Positions 1 through 36,194 of a DNA stretch of 36,194 nt are shown here, piece after piece; positions within the stretch are counted from its first letter, which is position 1; every line of letters starts with the position of its first letter. Origin of the DNA: Microcaldota archaeon (GTDB lineage: Archaea > Micrarchaeota > Micrarchaeia > Micrarchaeales > Micrarchaeaceae); NCBI GenBank assembly GCA_021818545.1, contig JAKATX010000003.1, positions 1 through 36,194 on the forward strand, read 5' to 3'. The notes beneath the pieces were generated by a model that did no database searches, was not told where the DNA came from, and was given only the letters and a program-made list of their open reading frames with translations. A program made the position numbers and the translations under genes.

Positions 1-127
1 ATATAGGCCAGTTGGGGCCGAGCCAATCAGCCACCTTTTACTTCAAGAACGCCTCCGCAGGCGCAATACCTACCGCCAATGTGCCGGTAGGTTATCCGTT
101 CACCGGCGACATATGGCTGGGATACTG
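1..127. repeat. Left copy of 127-bp inverted terminal repeat
   Basis: Bases 1-127 equal the reverse complement of 36068-36194 with no mismatch; the first difference is at base 128 (T here, C in the other copy), after which the two sequences stay homologous but diverge quickly. The repeat lies wholly inside the conserved core of two pilin genes. Exactly 127 is also a common assembler k-mer length, so the contig ends probably mark a shared graph node. Confidence 0.95.
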
Positions 128-1343
128 TACAACTCAGGGGTGCAGTTCGCCTACCAGTTTCGCAGAGGTCGGTACGATAAACGTGAAGGCAGCAGGAAGC
201 GCTTTCAGTGGGGGCACTTCGACAACTACGTCTAGTAGCACATCATCCACTTCATCGACTTCCTCCACATCTTCGACAACTTCAACAAGTGTGTATTACG
301 TTGAGCTGACTTTGACAAATAGCCAAAGCTCATCCACGTCGGCGCCGTCTCAGCAGATGATTACATTCAATCCATCCAGCTTCAGCACACACGAAGCCCA
401 GGATTTAGGGAACATAAGGTTCTATTCCGGAAGCGCAGGCACGGGGCAGGAGTTGTACAGCTGGTGCGAACGAGGATGCAATACGACATCATCCATGGCG
501 ATTTTTTGGGTTAAACTGACAAACTCCATAGCGGCAGGCAATACTATGACTATAAACATGACTTTAGAATCGACAACTGTGGAGTATGACCTCGCAAGCA
601 ATGGCATAAACGCATATGCAGGGGAAGCGCCAGAATTATCCTGCACTAATATAAGGCAAACACCATCTTGCGCAACCTATGCAGAATACGACAATGGTGC
701 CAATATATTTTCCGCGTTCTACGATAATTTCAAGGGGTCTACGCTTGATTCAAACTGGGTATATAGCTCGTGGACCACTAACGGCAACGGGGGACTGTAC
801 AGCATAAACAATGGGCTTAACCTAGATACAGTTGAGGCGAGCCAGAGTTACGGCGATCACATCAACAGCACTAAGACATTCACCAAGCCGTTTGGTTTTA
901 CGCTTTCATACCTAAGCCAGTATTATAAATCAAACACATGCGGTGCCCACGCATCATACATACAAGTAGGGACTTATCAGACAACCGGTATGTACGACTC
1001 TAGCTGCTATCCGGCTTACAATGTGCTTGGCAGCCAATGGGTTAACAGTAGTGGCTATGGCAGCGGGTCTGTTACTAAATTAAACGGTACTTTCACTGCA
1101 ATGTTGGGGCCATCTGGATCTGCCAATTACACTTTCTTCCAGTCCACCAATAACAATTACGGTGTTAGTCCTGCAACTGGCACAAGCAGCATGGCGTCAT
1201 CCAGCAACACGTTTGTAATAGGCGTAAGTGAATGGAATAACAATGCCGGAAATTACTCGAGCATTTACACAAATGATGTTGGCATGTTCACATATCCACC
1301 AAATGGCGTTATGCCAAGCGTAACTGTTGGCTCCTTACAGTGA
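1..1343 (+). CDS. Pilin-like surface protein with DUF2341-type domain, 5' end missing
   Basis: The reading frame is open to the left edge, so the N-terminal signal and membrane helix are cut off; the TTG at 12 is an internal Leu, not a start. By alignment with the pilin at 26996-28564, the first residues (IGQLGPSQSATFYF) match IGSLAPGQT inside the conserved pilin core, which runs to GTINVKAAG. A Ser/Thr linker follows (about 205-297), then a region like DUF2341 (YVELTLTNSQ, WVKLTNS, YAEYDNGANIF), then a lectin-like C-terminal part rich in Asn, Ser and Tyr ending MPSVTVGSLQ. The same C-terminal architecture and ending occur in the 26996-28564 protein. Probably a secreted, possibly glycosylated, pilus or cell-surface adhesin. 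DUF2341 is a family recognition by eye; ligand unknown. Confidence 0.75.
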   Translation, partial: IGQLGPSQSATFYFKNASAGAIPTANVPVGYPFTGDIWLGYCTTQGCSSPTSFAEVGTINVKAAGSAFSGGTSTTTSSSTSSTSSTSSTSSTTSTSVYYVELTLTNSQSSSTSAPSQQMITFNPSSFSTHEAQDLGNIRFYSGSAGTGQELYSWCERGCNTTSSMAIFWVKLTNSIAAGNTMTINMTLESTTVEYDLASNGINAYAGEAPELSCTNIRQTPSCATYAEYDNGANIFSAFYDNFKGSTLDSNWVYSSWTTNGNGGLYSINNGLNLDTVEASQSYGDHINSTKTFTKPFGFTLSYLSQYYKSNTCGAHASYIQVGTYQTTGMYDSSCYPAYNVLGSQWVNSSGYGSGSVTKLNGTFTAMLGPSGSANYTFFQSTNNNYGVSPATGTSSMASSSNTFVIGVSEWNNNAGNYSSIYTNDVGMFTYPPNGVMPSVTVGSLQ

Positions 1344-1390
1344 TATGCATAAGTACGCGTTGCCACTATTATTTATTTAGTCAGATAAAA

Positions 1391-1750
1391 ATGTATGAGA
1401 AGAAAATGAAAACATGCAAGTCAAAGGCCCAATCAGCTATTGAGTACCTGATGACCTACGGATGGGCGATATTGGTCATCGCTATAATAGTTTCGCTGTT
1501 ATTCGCGCTGGGGCTGTTCAACTCCGGTGCAAACACGCCGAACTTCTGCGTATCCCAGTCTAATTTCAACTGCTGGAATCCTGCATATACGTCGAACGGC
1601 ATAACGCTTACGATAAGCCAGAACACGGGGGAGGACATAATGACTCGTGGGCCTTCGTGGTTTCGTCATCCGAGCGCATCGGATCCAGCGGGCTGCCTGA
1701 GAACTTCTCGACCTCAAGCACGGACAACATGGTACACCTGGGCATTTTAG
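1391..1750 (+). CDS. Pilin-like protein, N-terminal fragment (gene broken by frameshift)
   Basis: Starts at ATG 1391 (MYEKKMKTCKSKAQ; ATG 1406 is an alternative), about 20 bases after a TATA-like TTATTTAT, so a leaderless or short-leader start fits; it lies 47 bases after the preceding pilin gene. The class III signal is clear: KA^QSAIEYL with Gln +1 and Glu +5, then the membrane helix TYGWAILVIAIIVSLLFALG. The pilin core continues to SQNTGEDI near 1639, after which this frame turns into nonsense and stops at 1750. The true continuation (NDSWAFVVSSS) is in the next frame from 1639. One missing A in the short A-run at 1639-1640 would join both pieces into one protein of about 507 residues. Confidence 0.75.
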   Translation: MYEKKMKTCKSKAQSAIEYLMTYGWAILVIAIIVSLLFALGLFNSGANTPNFCVSQSNFNCWNPAYTSNGITLTISQNTGEDIMTRGPSWFRHPSASDPAGCLRTSRPQARTTWYTWAF

Positions 1751-2910
1751 CTCCAGGCCAGACCGTCACATTGAACTACAGCGGTGGTGCATACGCAATG
1801 GCTGGTGACATACCTACCGGTAACAACATACCTGTAGGCTTTCAGTTCACAGGCTACGTCTGGCTCGCGTATTGCTCGGTGCCGTCATGCAATACTCCGA
1901 CCAGCTTCACGAAGGTAGGCACGATAAACGTGAAGAACAGCGGCCCTAGCACTTTCTCATCGCTGCCTACCACAACTACTACAAGCACATTGACTACAAC
2001 AAGCACGACAACCTCTACTTCGACAAGCACTTCTAGCACATCTACTACAGTAGCGACCACAACTAGCACTACGACGACGTCTTCGAGTAGCACGATACAG
2101 CAGACGTTCAATCCTACAGGCGGAGTGACTTATCAGGGCGATGTAGTATTTTCTTCATCGACAAGCCTTTCAGGGGATATTCTAGCAACAAACAGCATAT
2201 TCATACTAAGTGGGGTTACATTAACCACTAATGGGCACTCCCTCATTGCAGGAGCAGTGTTCAGCAATGCTGGCACGGTGGACACCGGCAACCTGAATAA
2301 TGGGGGCCCTAGCACAGGCACTAGCTCTGGAGGTTCGGGTAACTCAGGCGGGTCTGAAACGAATTCATATGGTGGATCTGGCGCGTCAGGCGGCAGCGGC
2401 GGCACAGGATGCGGATGCAATGGCCAATCAGGCGCTGGAGGCAACACGCAAGCTCCAGGTGGGGCAGCAGTATGCGCCTGTGGAGGCACCGGAAATAATG
2501 GTGCGACACCTTCTGCACCTTCATTAAGCGTATCGCTCTTAGAAACGTGGTATTCAGGAGGTATGGATGGTTACCTGTCTGGCGCTGGAGGCGGATCTTC
2601 CGGCATGAATGGCAGGGGCGGCGGCGGTGGAGGTGGTGGTTATGGCTTATATATACAAGCATCTTCTATAACAGCCGGAATAATAAATGGACAAGGTAAT
2701 GCAGGCCAATCGGCATCTTCAGGTGGCGGTGGTAGCGGGGGCGGTTCCGTGCTACTCGCGTATGGCACTACATACAGTTCTGGTACGTATAACCTTGTTG
2801 GAGGAGCAGGAGGAGGCTGCTCAGGGACTTGTGCAAGCCAGAGCGGAGGGGCAGGAGGGTCAGGCCAGCCCATAACGTATCAATGGTCAACGCCACCTAT
2901 TACGCCATGA
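1639..2910 (+). CDS. Pilin-like protein, C-terminal fragment with Gly-rich module
   Basis: Continuation of the pilin that starts at 1391, in the shifted frame; the first in-frame start codon is GTG 1657, which has no supporting signal, so this is not an independent gene. It carries the rest of the pilin core (LAPGQTVTLNY, GYVWLAYC, VGTINVKNSG), a Ser/Thr linker (about 1966-2100), a short stacked-repeat region (TLTTNGHSLIAG, FSNAGTVDTG) and a long Gly/Ser-rich domain with Cys pairs ending ITYQWSTPPITP. The same C-terminal module, with the same WSTPP ending, is in the pilin at the right edge. Likely surface adhesin or shaft protein. Whether the frameshift is real, programmed or a sequencing error cannot be told from the sequence. 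Confidence 0.72.
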   Translation, partial: NDSWAFVVSSSERIGSSGLPENFSTSSTDNMVHLGILAPGQTVTLNYSGGAYAMAGDIPTGNNIPVGFQFTGYVWLAYCSVPSCNTPTSFTKVGTINVKNSGPSTFSSLPTTTTTSTLTTTSTTTSTSTSTSSTSTTVATTTSTTTTSSSSTIQQTFNPTGGVTYQGDVVFSSSTSLSGDILATNSIFILSGVTLTTNGHSLIAGAVFSNAGTVDTGNLNNGGPSTGTSSGGSGNSGGSETNSYGGSGASGGSGGTGCGCNGQSGAGGNTQAPGGAAVCACGGTGNNGATPSAPSLSVSLLETWYSGGMDGYLSGAGGGSSGMNGRGGGGGGGGYGLYIQASSITAGIINGQGNAGQSASSGGGGSGGGSVLLAYGTTYSSGTYNLVGGAGGGCSGTCASQSGGAGGSGQPITYQWSTPPITP

Positions 2911-26626: not shown

Positions 26627-26801
26627 GCTTCGTGAACCATATGGTCAACGTATAGTCGCACACTATTATTATTTTTATATAGGTGAACCAAATTATATCG
26701 CGGGCATAACTCCATTTGGCTGGTATACACGTATTCGGAACTACTGGTAGGTCGCACTAGGTGCAAAATCCCATAATATTGGATTTGTCGCAAATTCTAT
26801 T

Positions 26802-26865
26802 TGCTCCCATCGGGATTTGAACCCGAGTTGCGGGGTTGAAAGCCCCGCGTCCTTGGCCGGACTAG
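26802..26865 (-). tRNA. tRNA-Glu(UUC), only positions about 12-73 recognisable
   Basis: Minus strand. The T arm is perfect (TCGGG TTCAAAT CCCGA), the anticodon arm is CGGGG CTTTCAA CCCCG with anticodon UUC, the D loop AGTCCGGCCAA is the tRNA-Glu type, the 3' acceptor strand is TGGGAGC and the discriminator is A. No CCA is encoded. The matching 5' strand (GCTCCCA or a G-U equivalent) and positions 10-11 are absent from the roughly 200 bases upstream that I read: sequence fit ends sharply at CTAG (26862-26865). Either a non-canonical intron starts here, the 5' piece is encoded elsewhere (split tRNA), or the gene is damaged. Confidence 0.75.
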
Positions 26866-26909
26866 CTGTCGTAAAACAAGCACTATTTTTCCTAGCCATT
26901 CCAAAGCAC

Positions 26910-26995: not shown

Positions 26996-28564
26996 TCATT
27001 GTACAGAGCCGAAGGTGACGGAGGGCATCACGCCGTTCGGCGGATAAGCACGTATGCGATACCAATAGAGCTCAAAAGCTCCATTTGACAAAATGCTTGG
27101 TGCAATTCCTCCACGTATAGAGCCTGAATATGTGCTAAATCCTGGATTTTGATAATTGATAAGCCCAGTTGCGCTTACCGCATCATAAAGTAGACTTACA
27201 ACATACCACGTGTTAAAACTTGCCGAACCTACGTTAGGCGGTGATGGTGAGTCCGCCCAGTCCATATAAAATTGGCTTGAATACATGTGTATTCCGGTAA
27301 AATAACCAAAATTAGTGCCATTGACATCTATTTGTATATCGGCTGCACCTGTTGATTCAGTATACGCTTCTGCTATGCCTACAGTTCCATAAGTCATCGA
27401 AGTGTAAATGGTTGCCGGTGAGCCAGAGCAACTACATGAAATTCCATTATTTATAACAAGTCCCGAAAGTCCAGTTGTCCATCCGCTAGGCATGCTTGTG
27501 CCTGCGAAGTTCCAATAGCCAGTGAACACATTAGCTCCATTATCGTACTCCGCATACGTGGGGCTTAACTGCGGCGCCTCGCCCGTAGGGCCAGAAGCCG
27601 AAAGGATGCTGTTGGGCATGAAGTTCATGTATATAGTAGCGCTGCCGCCATTGGCCGGCACCTGCGTCAAGCCCATGTTGACCCATACCATGGTCATGCC
27701 CGAGTTCGTCGGGTTCCTCTCAATCCATGCTTGAAGCGGTGTGCCGCCGTTCGCTATGGTGTTGCCAGATGAGAACTCCACGTTGCTCCATGTAGAATCA
27801 ATTTCGTTGGCGCTGTTGTAGCGGGCGTTGTCTATCGTGAGGTTCTGTTGGAACTGCAATGGTGTCGGTGTGGACTGCGCATTGGTCAGCATTATCGCGA
27901 CATAATTAATGGTGGTCGTAGAAGCCGTCGTTGTGGTTGTGCTGGTGGTGCTCGTAATTGTCGTCGAAGTTGATGTTGAAGGTGTAGATGTGGGTGAGGG
28001 CCCACCACTTAAAGCTGTGGATCCGCTGGCCTGCACGTTCATCGCGGCCACTTTGGCGTACTGCGCGCCGCCTGCACACATAGGGTTGGTGCAGTATCCG
28101 ATCCACACGTATGCCGATAGAGGCGTGCTGACTGGGGCGTTAGGTTGTATGCCGCCCTGTGGCAGGCTGTTGAAGGTTACTATGACCGTCTGACCTGGCG
28201 CGAGGCTGCCTATCGCATACGAATATAGTGACATATTAGCCGGCCTGCCGTTGCCCTCAAGCCCCAAGCTCTCCGATGCAACGAAAGCATTGACTGAATA
28301 GTAGTACTTGCCACTGCTCTGCCCGAATGTGAAGGATACCGCGTTGGCAGTATAACTCGGATTAGAGCAAGTGTAACTTAATTGTGCAACGCATGATGTT
28401 GGGGCGGGGACGCCATTGAAAAGACCAAGAGCAAATATTATGGTTATTATAATCGCGATTATGAGTATGGCCCACCCGTAGGTCATCAGGTATTCCATCG
28501 CACTTTGCAACTTTATAGCATGTGATGGTATTGTTTTTATATCTCTGGAAGTCTGCCTTGCCAT
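26996..28564 (-). CDS. Pilin-like surface protein with DUF2341-type domain
   Basis: 522 residues, the only complete long member of this family in the window. Class III signal: AIKL^QSAMEYL (Gln +1, Glu +5), cut by a prepilin peptidase, then helix TYGWAILIIAIIITIIFALG. Pilin core to about 170 (LAPGQTVIV, YVWIGYCTNPMC, VAAMNVQASG), Ser/Thr linker about 185-215, then DUF2341-like domain (YVAIMLTNAQ, WVNMGL, IYMNFMP, YAEYDNGANVFTGYW) and a lectin-like end MPSVTFGSVQ, parallel to the protein at the left edge. Exported through Sec, anchored or assembled as a filament; linker probably glycosylated. A divergent Lrp-type regulator lies 124 bases upstream and may control it. Confidence 0.82.
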   Translation of the reverse strand: MARQTSRDIKTIPSHAIKLQSAMEYLMTYGWAILIIAIIITIIFALGLFNGVPAPTSCVAQLSYTCSNPSYTANAVSFTFGQSSGKYYYSVNAFVASESLGLEGNGRPANMSLYSYAIGSLAPGQTVIVTFNSLPQGGIQPNAPVSTPLSAYVWIGYCTNPMCAGGAQYAKVAAMNVQASGSTALSGGPSPTSTPSTSTSTTITSTTSTTTTTASTTTINYVAIMLTNAQSTPTPLQFQQNLTIDNARYNSANEIDSTWSNVEFSSGNTIANGGTPLQAWIERNPTNSGMTMVWVNMGLTQVPANGGSATIYMNFMPNSILSASGPTGEAPQLSPTYAEYDNGANVFTGYWNFAGTSMPSGWTTGLSGLVINNGISCSCSGSPATIYTSMTYGTVGIAEAYTESTGAADIQIDVNGTNFGYFTGIHMYSSQFYMDWADSPSPPNVGSASFNTWYVVSLLYDAVSATGLINYQNPGFSTYSGSIRGGIAPSILSNGAFELYWYRIRAYPPNGVMPSVTFGSVQ

Positions 28565-29979: not shown

Positions 29980-30103
29980 CGCCAGGGTTGGGATTTGAAC
30001 CCAAAATTCCGCGAAGGAAACCGGTTGCCTTGTTCGCATCACTAATCAGCTCTTGAGTTATGAATCTCAAGACCGGCGCGTTACCAGATTCCGCCACCCT
30101 GGC
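29980..30103 (-). tRNA. tRNA-Ser(UGA) with 39-base intron
   Basis: Minus strand, 124 bases. Acceptor GCCAGGG/CCCTGGC is perfect, discriminator G73 fits serine (leucine tRNAs have A73), the long variable arm TTCC-TTCG-C-GGAA marks a class II tRNA, and the T arm TTGGG TTCAAAT CCCAA is perfect. The anticodon stem CCGGT/ACCGG with loop CTTGAGA gives anticodon UGA after removal of an intron between 37 and 38 (about 30027-30065). The exon anticodon region pairs with the intron (TCTTGAG with CTCAAGA), as in archaeal bulge-helix-bulge splice sites. No CCA is encoded. Confidence 0.85.
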
Positions 30104-31325: not shown

Positions 31326-32153
31326 ATGCATAAGAGATGGCGCCCAAATACGAGAAGGCAGCAATCCGCCATAGAGCTGCTTACCACTTACTCATGGGCA
31401 TTTCTCATAATAGCAGTATTCGCGGCTGCCATAATAACGTTTTATCTTGCACAGCCCGCCCCTAATTATATAGGAAGCTCATGCAACATAGTGCCAGAAT
31501 TCCCGTGCTCGGAAGCCGCGTTGTATAGCAGCGGAGCATCAAGTTCCAAAATCACCGAGACCATAGTATTCACAAATAATTTAGGCACAGCGATCATGTT
31601 CCCGCAGAACTCATTCAACGCAACGACAACAGGCGTGAGCGTGATAAGCGTTAGTGGAATAGGCGATTGCGTGCCTTCTCTGGCGTTGCCGAATGCGAAG
31701 ATAACATGCCAGGCAAGTATAACAGGCGCGCTCACGCCGCCCATTGGCACATACCAAAGCACGAGATTCACTTTATCTTATGAAATATGCAATGGAAACT
31801 CCGCAAGCCTTTGCCCATCCAAAATCTACAAAACCAGCGGCCTTGCGGCGCAGACCTTTGGCGTACAGAAGAACTCGTTGCTTCTCGTGAACTTCACCTC
31901 TTCACCCATTGCAGGATCAATATCTTTAGGGGGAGTGCAATACACAGGCAACACCGCAGCTTATTTCCAGCCAGGTAATTATGTGATTTATGCTAAACCA
32001 CCTGCAGGTTATGCCTTTTCTTCATGGACCGTACAACCCCAATCAGCGCTTGTTTCCAATACCGCACAGACAGAAACAATATCCATAGCATCCAACACAA
32101 TCATTACTGCAAATTTCGTTCTTTCAACCGCAACTTCTACTACATCGACATGA
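31326..32153 (+). CDS. Pilin-like surface protein, C-terminus apparently truncated
   Basis: 275 residues from ATG 31326 (MHKRWRPNTRR; an upstream TTG at 31308 is less likely). Class III signal RRQ^QSAIELL (Gln +1, Glu +5) with helix TYSWAFLIIAVFAAAIITFYL. The body has IgG-like strands with paired Cys (SSCNIVPEFPC, GDCVPS, ITCQAS, EICNGNSASLC) and a C-terminal repeat resembling PEGA/InlB-type domains (FQPGNYVIYAKPPAGYAFSSWTV). It ends in the first residues of a Ser/Thr linker (TATSTTST) and a stop, directly where a decayed IS200 element begins; other members have a whole extra module after such a linker. Probably shortened by the insertion. Confidence 0.75.
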   Translation: MHKRWRPNTRRQQSAIELLTTYSWAFLIIAVFAAAIITFYLAQPAPNYIGSSCNIVPEFPCSEAALYSSGASSSKITETIVFTNNLGTAIMFPQNSFNATTTGVSVISVSGIGDCVPSLALPNAKITCQASITGALTPPIGTYQSTRFTLSYEICNGNSASLCPSKIYKTSGLAAQTFGVQKNSLLLVNFTSSPIAGSISLGGVQYTGNTAAYFQPGNYVIYAKPPAGYAFSSWTVQPQSALVSNTAQTETISIASNTIITANFVLSTATSTTST

Positions 32154-35037: not shown

Positions 35038-36194
35038 TTATGGTATCGGCGGAGTAGACCATTGATAGGTTATTGCGCTTCCACTTGTGCTAGCTGCGGA
35101 TCCGCCATTAGCACCTGGGGACCCTCCGCCATTATTCCAACCTGCACCGCCGCCAATGTTAATTGTACCTAGAGCAGCAAGGCCACCAGGGCCGTAAGAA
35201 AGCAGAACTGCGCCGCCGCCTCCTCCTCCGCCTCCGGCTTGATTGCAACAATTAGTAGCTGAACTCCCGTCACCTCCGGGTGCACCATAAGCATTTATCG
35301 TGCCGGCATTGTCTATTGTATTTGCCTGGATATAAATTCCATATGCTCCAGATCCGCCGCCACAGGCACAGGTGTTTCCACCACCGCCGCCACCGCCAGA
35401 TAGGAGATTAGCCATCCCATCAATGGTGTACCATGTATTTATGTTAGACGCGATCGTTCCACTCGATGGCGCAGACGGCGTGGATCCGGGCTGCCCCGGC
35501 CCGCCGCCGTAGCCACCGTTCCCCCCGGCACCGCCGGACACTGCAGTAGAACCTCCGGATCCGCCGCCACCAGCGTTGTATCCGCCGCCGCCGCCTGAAC
35601 CGCCGTATGAACCACCATACGAAGTAAATGAAGTACCGGTGCATCCATCGCAAGAACCAGCGTTTGAGTAGTAACCTGTGTTTATTGTGCCTAGATTGCT
35701 GAAAGTTGTGCCGCTCACTATGGAATAACCTGCTGTTGTAAGTGTAATGCCTCCGTTTATCGTTACGCTTCCAGTTGCGTTCACATTATTGGATAGTTGC
35801 ATAGAAGATGTATATGTTATGCTGCCCATACACGTGCCTCCGGCCCAATCATTTGTACACGCTATTATCGAAGTTGATGTGGTCGAAGTTGAAGACGTAG
35901 ACGTGGATGTGGTCGAAGTTGAAGACGTGGATGTGGTCGAAGTTGATGTAGTAGAAGTGCTAGTAGTGCTAGTATAGGGGGACCCATCGAGCGAGACACC
36001 GCTGAACCTTGTGTTCAATGTGCCTATCCTTGAATATGACGTCGGATACTTGCATCCTGGAGTTGTGCAGTATCCCAGCCATATGTCGCCGGTGAACGGA
36101 TAACCTACCGGCACATTGGCGGTAGGTATTGCGCCTGCGGAGGCGTTCTTGAAGTAAAAGGTGGCTGATTGGCTCGGCCCCAACTGGCCTATAT
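35038..36194 (-). CDS. Pilin-like surface protein with Gly-rich module, 5' end missing
   Basis: The frame is open to the right edge, so the signal peptide and membrane helix lie outside; the in-frame TTG at 36183 is internal. Order: conserved pilin core identical over 127 bases to the left-edge gene, Ser/Thr linker (35868-35975, tandem repeats), stacked strand region (SITYTSSMQLSNNVNATG, TTFSNLGTINTG), then a long Gly/Ser/Asn domain with Cys pairs (CDGCTG, NCCNQAG) ending ITYQWSTPPIP. The same module and ending occur in the frameshifted gene at 1639-2910. So this pilin core is like the left-edge gene's but its C-terminus belongs to the other type. Surface adhesin inferred. Confidence 0.76.
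   Translation of the reverse strand, partial: IGQLGPSQSATFYFKNASAGAIPTANVPVGYPFTGDIWLGYCTTPGCKYPTSYSRIGTLNTRFSGVSLDGSPYTSTTSTSTTSTSTTSTSSTSTTSTSTSSTSTTSTSIIACTNDWAGGTCMGSITYTSSMQLSNNVNATGSVTINGGITLTTAGYSIVSGTTFSNLGTINTGYYSNAGSCDGCTGTSFTSYGGSYGGSGGGGGYNAGGGGSGGSTAVSGGAGGNGGYGGGPGQPGSTPSAPSSGTIASNINTWYTIDGMANLLSGGGGGGGNTCACGGGSGAYGIYIQANTIDNAGTINAYGAPGGDGSSATNCCNQAGGGGGGGGAVLLSYGPGGLAALGTINIGGGAGWNNGGGSPGANGGSAASTSGSAITYQWSTPPIP
35881..35946 (-). repeat. Tandem repeat in the pilin Ser/Thr linker
   Basis: Plus-strand units starting GGTCGAAGTTGA at 35881 (30 bases), 35911 (24 bases) and 35935 (partial) differ by in-frame 6-base steps. They encode alternating Thr and Ser. Such repeats expand and shrink by slippage, changing linker length, and may be glycosylated. 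Confidence 0.75.
36068..36194. repeat. Right copy of 127-bp inverted terminal repeat
   Basis: Exact reverse complement of 1-127, inside the right-edge pilin core; see the left copy. The sequences differ from position 36067 inward. Confidence 0.95.

Follow-up and report, generated by a model that had tools for sequence, protein, structure and literature searches.

Homogenized pilin cores and decoupled ends in a probable type IV pilin-adhesin family of Micrarchaeota

The DNA analyzed here (the window) is a stretch of 36,194 nt that forms one whole contig (G000:C4) of G000, a Micrarchaeota MAG of 711 kb in 13 contigs that is ~60% complete. As checked by translation, the window contains five genes of the class-III-signal type (Table 1). 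The modular pilins begin with a class III signal and a TYGWAIL helix, continue with the core and a Ser/Thr linker, and finish in a DUF2341 or Gly-rich end. This order, given in the initial annotation, was confirmed by translation, but the signal is absent from the data for both edge genes, which are cut at their 5' side. Because the window is a complete contig whose ends lie inside these genes, gene 1 on the left and gene 5 on the right are both 5'-truncated. As the initial annotation had claimed, they have the same core followed by different end types; the cores match over 135 nt at 99.3% (partner 36060-36194) and over 144 nt at 97%, in inverted orientation. The sequence common to both edges is the site where the assembly broke.

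Table 1. Pilin-type features of the window (core/end borders were taken from HMM matches and may be off by a few codons).
Feature	Coordinates	Strand	Basis or remark
Gene 1, 3' third of pilin core, 5' part missing	3..203	+	core HMM 107-173; contig starts here
Gene 1, Ser/Thr linker	204..290	+	translation
Gene 1, DUF2341-type end, ending ...YPPNGVMPSVTVGSLQ*	291..1343	+	PF10102 above cut-off; tail HMM
Gene 2, start codon and leader peptide	1391..1423	+	ATG at 1391; signal ...SKAQSAIEYLMTYGWAIL
Gene 2, pilin core, frame broken by one-base deletion	1424..1953	+	
Gene 2, Ser/Thr linker	1954..2061	+	translation
Gene 2, Gly-rich end, terminus YQWSTPPITP	2062..2910	+	tail HMM
Decayed DUF2341-type tail remnant, YQPNGVMPAI*FGS-like	26684..26746	-	in-frame stops: one TAG, one TAA
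P0001, DUF2341-type end	26996..27910	-	PF10102 E 3e-4, slightly under cut-off
P0001, Ser/Thr linker	27911..28012	-	translation
P0001, class III signal helix and pilin core	28013..28513	-	core HMM 2-174, E 8e-63
Fifth pilin-type gene, other body with InlB-like repeat	31326..32153	+	Flg_new_2 E 9e-8
Gene 5, Gly-rich end, terminus YQWSTPPIP	35038..35901	-	tail HMM
Gene 5, Ser/Thr linker, tandem-repetitive	35902..35991	-	
Gene 5, 3' third of pilin core, 5' part missing	35992..36192	-	core HMM; contig end

The two DUF2341 ends that had been assigned differ in strength, as that at 1-1343 lies above the Pfam cut-off, whereas that at 26996-28564 falls just below it (gathering score of PF10102, 23.4; P0002, 26.0 bits; P0001, 21.5 bits). 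DUF2341 was matched by all seven members of alignment A1. The two Gly-rich ends do carry the WSTPP termini described for them (2062-2907 and 35044-35901), but gene 2 starts at 1391 and not at 1639, which belongs to a downstream frame. One base is missing from gene 2 at 1644/1645 relative to the same stretch of a near-identical gene on G004:C1; homopolymer slippage was rejected as the cause of this frameshift, the missing base lying outside the G5 run. The core of gene 2 is a mosaic, which matches the G004:C1 gene from 1501 to ~1685 and is 96% identical to the G004:C7:6302 gene over 1689-1817.

P0001 (26996-28564, minus strand) is intact, with its start codon at 28564, and its AlphaFold model shows a helix at residues 22-45 followed by beta strands, with low confidence. 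The decayed remnant nearby is 62% identical to residues 500-520 of P0001, and a tRNA gene stands between the two. Two tRNA genes on the minus strand (26802-26866 and 29980-30103) are detected by Rfam and missed by ARAGORN; the latter spans 124 nt, as if it contained an intron. The collinear region of G002 lacks P0001, the tRNA at 26802-26866, and an AsnC-type regulator as a block. Because a tRNA adjoins P0001, tRNA genes were considered as insertion hot spots for pilins, and this idea was rejected (3 of 154 pilins lie <600 bp from a tRNA, vs. 9% of other genes). The gene at 31326-32153 has a different body, as the initial annotation had noted. It is syntenic with G002:C11:24883, with common flanking genes and 80% identity over the aligning part of the core, and it is a stable, syntenic single pilin outside the reassorting set.

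Beyond the window, the core occurs at ~23 places in the 0.71 Mb partial genome G000 and at 23-41 places in each of four same-genus genomes, and matches to it were found in all 41 genomes searched. Profile searches of the fetched stretches, to which gene calls and ortholog assignment were confined, yielded 139 core ORFs across five genus-mates. These carry a DUF2341-type end (sometimes two in tandem), a Gly-rich end, an InlB-like end, or no end. Two tandem DUF2341 modules lie in one reading frame at G000:C7:66705-69455, G000:C11:24412-26988, and G003:C13:62086-64926. Since G004 and G000 are 100.0% identical over shared stretches as long as 10 kb and G004 breaks inside the same cores, G004 is effectively the same strain reassembled. 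At least 8 of the 26 contig ends of G000 lie inside pilin genes and others in transposon-like genes; many of the remaining ends (C2, C5, C6, C7, C12, and C13) fall in near-identical TnpB/IS605-type-like genes, and another repeated ORF is found at the ends of C7, C8, and C11. Several kinds of broken gene were also observed. Stop codons interrupt several pilin genes at the G002 loci C5, C16, and C18, so this species may be losing copies or its assembly may be poorer. On G000:C13, a truncated pilin (L045:12670-12966) is fused to unrelated sequence, and its first ~35 core codons and ~450 nt upstream are identical to the full gene L045:10019-11536, 1.4 kb away. Finally, a broken tyrosine recombinase (G000:C7:69837-70130), which has the same stops in G004, lies directly upstream of a pilin gene.

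Assignment of these proteins to type IV pili rests on several features. The class III signal, with a short charged leader, a cleavage site, and an (A/G)QSAMEYL-type start of a hydrophobic helix, is present in nearly all complete copies. The Pfam model for this signal (PF04021, Class_IIIsignal) gave one match in the genome, far under cut-off, which is weak evidence because the model spans only 27 positions. All five genomes encode a prepilin peptidase (A24, PF01478; score over cut-off in four of them) and a secretion ATPase (PF00437). For the Gly-rich end, no matching family was found. AlphaFold yielded models of low confidence (mean pLDDT 46 and 52), a sequence search of solved structures gave no match, and a fold search of the PDB returned nothing at E <1e-3 and a weak match to a Pyrobaculum archaeal pilus (8fk7, E 0.025).

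Comparison of cores within genomes revealed tracts of identity with sharp edges. For instance, the G000 genes C13:14480 and C7:66705 show three synonymous differences (codons 10-12) and then 160 identical codons (~480 nt); upstream their similarity is random, and their ends are unrelated. Among 117 within-genome matches (>=88% over >=120 nt, the comparisons sharing genes and thus being non-independent), 90 start <=20 nt from the QSAMEYL codons, i.e., the start of the mature pilin. On the right, the matches stop within the core, at the linker, or in DUF2341. In a permutation run test on polymorphic third codon positions, over-long identical runs were found in all four genome groups; C5 and C13:8407, for example, share a run of 70 sites where 15 are expected. 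The initial annotation had named the core and the linker as natural recombination points. The core is indeed the chief exchanged and homogenized piece, which at times reaches into DUF2341, but the linker is only one edge among several, as right edges also lie inside the core and DUF2341 and left edges at QSAMEYL. The core has thus been homogenized by recombination, with ends decoupled from it and tract edges that are sharp.

The histories of cores and ends were then compared. When 85 cores are placed on a tree, at least 13 changes are needed to account for the end label (DUF2341 or Gly-rich), and each of the two core types is found with each of the two end types. For the 31 genes with DUF2341 ends, drawn from four genome groups, cores from the same genome cluster together on the core tree (5 changes for the 4 groups), and all 13 G001 cores fall in one clade (support 100/99). 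The tree of their DUF2341 tails carries no genome signal (16 changes vs. a shuffled mean of 15.7), and a forced G001 tail clade is rejected by the AU test (p 2.5e-4). The tails of G003:C13:94973 and G001:C15:38472, the best cross-species tail pair, are sisters, and a forced clade of the cores of these two genes is rejected as well (AU p 2.8e-13). Core and end identity are hardly correlated, with Spearman coefficients of 0.19 within and -0.08 between genomes for DUF2341 ends and of 0.09 and -0.05 for Gly-rich ends. Within a genome, cores may be up to 100% identical (same-genome cores, 95-100%) with tails at ~40%; across species, tails 77-80% alike are found on cores ~54% alike. Congruent trees of core and end would have pointed to duplication and divergence; strong conflict was found instead, and the reassortment of module and core suggested in the initial annotation is supported on an evolutionary scale by this conflict and by the sharp-edged conversion tracts.

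Tail-less pilins and the 31326-32153 gene keep their neighborhood across species, like ordinary orthologs. On the other hand, one and the same downstream neighborhood carries three different ends: G004 has one of DUF2341 type and G002 a Gly-rich one, and the DUF2341 end found in G003 is an unrelated one (29%). Among G000/G004, G002, and G003, synteny holds for 87-98% of ordinary genes, so changes at modular loci do not reflect general rearrangement. About half of the few tail ortholog pairs between G000/G004 and G003 are still syntenic, so that movement is frequent and not universal; some relocation may involve whole genes, which is inseparable here from moves of ends. The non-synteny of G001 tails was discounted because ordinary genes there are only 18-46% syntenic. 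Several ends persist across species as orthologs, and ends sit on different cores and at different loci.

Two less fragmented genomes from other genera of the family, G007 (3 contigs) and G013 (one 952 kb contig), also have expanded pilins, in which a lectin-like Laminin_G_3 domain (PF13385) lies between a common N-terminal module and a C-terminal segment. Two adjacent G007 genes share ~650 nt at 99.8% (lectin and C-terminus), preceded by different N-terminal modules. In a G013 tandem array, the C-terminus of one gene is exact with one neighbor, and its N-terminus and lectin are exact with another. These exchanges sit inside long contigs (438 kb and 952 kb). A tandem array of three exactly identical 1.97 kb pilin units was also noted in G013 (C1:585587-590410, L286).

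Taken together, these genes probably form an archaeal type IV pilin-adhesin fusion family whose core is homogenized by intragenomic gene conversion while its ends vary on different cores and loci. In each protein, a class III signal with its assembly helix would lead into a pilin beta-core, from which a flexible Ser/Thr linker extends to a display end, made up of a Gly-rich domain or of DUF2341 together with a variable domain. The assembly core is kept near-uniform by homologous gene conversion within the genome; DNA is repeatedly copied between genes, which leaves near-identical stalks with different, adhesive-looking tips, and the ends escape conversion, diversify, and persist across species. 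The core is probably kept uniform since subunits must co-assemble in common pili, and the displayed ends can probably vary in ways that serve attachment to host cells or biofilm matrix; we infer an adhesive role for them.

Several other explanations were weighed against this reading. Simple duplication and divergence would have whole genes copied, the core held by selection at the protein level, and the ends diverging fast. All members are clearly paralogs, and in pilins the ends normally evolve faster than a conserved assembly core, yet this account does not predict ~480 identical nt that include synonymous sites and are flanked by unrelated DNA on both sides, nor the conflict of core and tail trees with its two AU values, nor similar cross-species ends on dissimilar cores next to the high identity of same-genome cores. 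It is highly improbable, and duplication with divergence alone is rejected on the tree conflict and tract edges. Alternatively, short-read assemblers collapse and mis-join repeats, so that assembly or binning could have produced false chimeras and a false core identity. The contig ends in G000 pilin genes, the breaks of G004 in the same cores, a window that itself ends in a repeat, and the frameshifted, mosaic gene 2 all agree with such an artifact. Short-read assembly by itself does not connect a ~480-nt identical core to its two flanks, so individual joins of core and tail in G000 may be mistaken; the conclusions rest on many genes and on long contigs in other genera. However, mis-joins presuppose cores that are truly near-identical, most cores differ enough for placement, the tree conflict spans many genes and four genome groups, and the same pattern is seen within the long G007 and G013 contigs. 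These points make an artifact quite unlikely.

Programmed antigenic or phase variation, in which silent end cassettes are copied into expressed pilins at high frequency as in Neisseria pilE/pilS, would be in keeping with a conserved core with variable ends, tandem end modules, broken or truncated copies, and contig breaks at junctions. Nearly all complete copies, however, begin with a start codon of their own and differ in upstream DNA and leaders, which argues against a single expression site and led to rejection of the silent-cassette model. End modules lacking a core are for the most part genes interrupted by a contig end. Neither a DGR nor a shufflon or other dedicated recombinase fits: reverse transcriptase (RVT_1) is absent from G000, G002, G003, and G004, with one in G001, and tyrosine recombinases (integrases) exist but none is beside a pilin, bar the one broken gene near C7. 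Moreover, tract edges follow the limits of homology and not the short crossover repeats of site-specific systems. Programmed variation is thus improbable. A further possibility, less easily set aside, is that horizontal transfer from other species or strains is the main source of ends, the conserved core providing landing homology, since closely similar ends occur in different species at non-syntenic loci and pilins are present or absent at otherwise collinear loci (e.g., P0001, missing in G002). Nevertheless, within the genus the best cross-species ends (~77-80%) are not clearly above ordinary orthologs, many of the fetched ones being 70-88% identical, so recent transfer is unneeded and seems rather unlikely as the main source. 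Finally, a pilin family homogenized by intragenomic conversion could serve active surface diversification, ends being swapped in living populations through the homogenized core and thereby changing the host-binding or virus-evading pili of an episymbiont; this extension is speculative, and at present it seems unlikely.

Members of the Micrarchaeota are believed to rely on other archaea, and to our knowledge little is known of how they recognize their hosts. That a genome of ~1 Mb keeps 20-40 pilin-adhesin genes, with a common stalk and varied ends, points to pili as the host interface. Such a family could allow the cell to change the targets to which its pili adhere and would be an archaeal counterpart to recombination-driven surface variation in bacteria; it predicts heteropolymeric pili with interchangeable tips. 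No report of a reassortment system of this kind in archaea was found in the literature searched.

In Neisseria pilE/pilS, a conserved N-terminal pilin part is joined to a variable C-terminal part, which changes by RecA-type gene conversion. The Micrarchaeota family resembles this system in principle, having conserved N-terminal and variable C-terminal parts and conversion tracts between copies, but it consists of many intact genes and not of a single expression locus with silent, promoterless donors. Here it is also the conserved part that is homogenized, and the exchangeable units are whole domains and not mini-cassettes. In the bacterial Opa and Mycoplasma lipoprotein families, intragenomic recombination homogenizes common parts and shuffles exposed ones. 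The same concerted evolution is seen here; unlike those families, the present one is archaeal and pilin-based, belongs to a reduced genome, and has a boundary pinned to the first codons of the mature pilin. Within archaea, DUF2341 proteins are associated with type IV pilus loci and have been compared with PilY-type tip adhesins (Makarova et al., 2016, PMC4858521). The genes described here are like the stand-alone archaeal adhesion or PilA-type pilins of that survey in their class III signal, assembly helix, and number per genome; they differ in that DUF2341 or Gly-rich ends are fused to the pilin, copies number in the dozens, and the core is gene-converted. In Mia14, an ARMAN-2-related member of the Micrarchaeota, jellyroll LamG-like proteins are expanded, some of them are tied to type IV pili loci, and a role in contact with the host has been suggested for them (Golyshina et al., 2017, PMC5498576); the part of the Mia14 account considered here describes these proteins without pilin fusion, core homogenization, or module exchange. 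The G007 and G013 families, which are LamG (PF13385) pilins, may be compared with this Mia14 LamG expansion.
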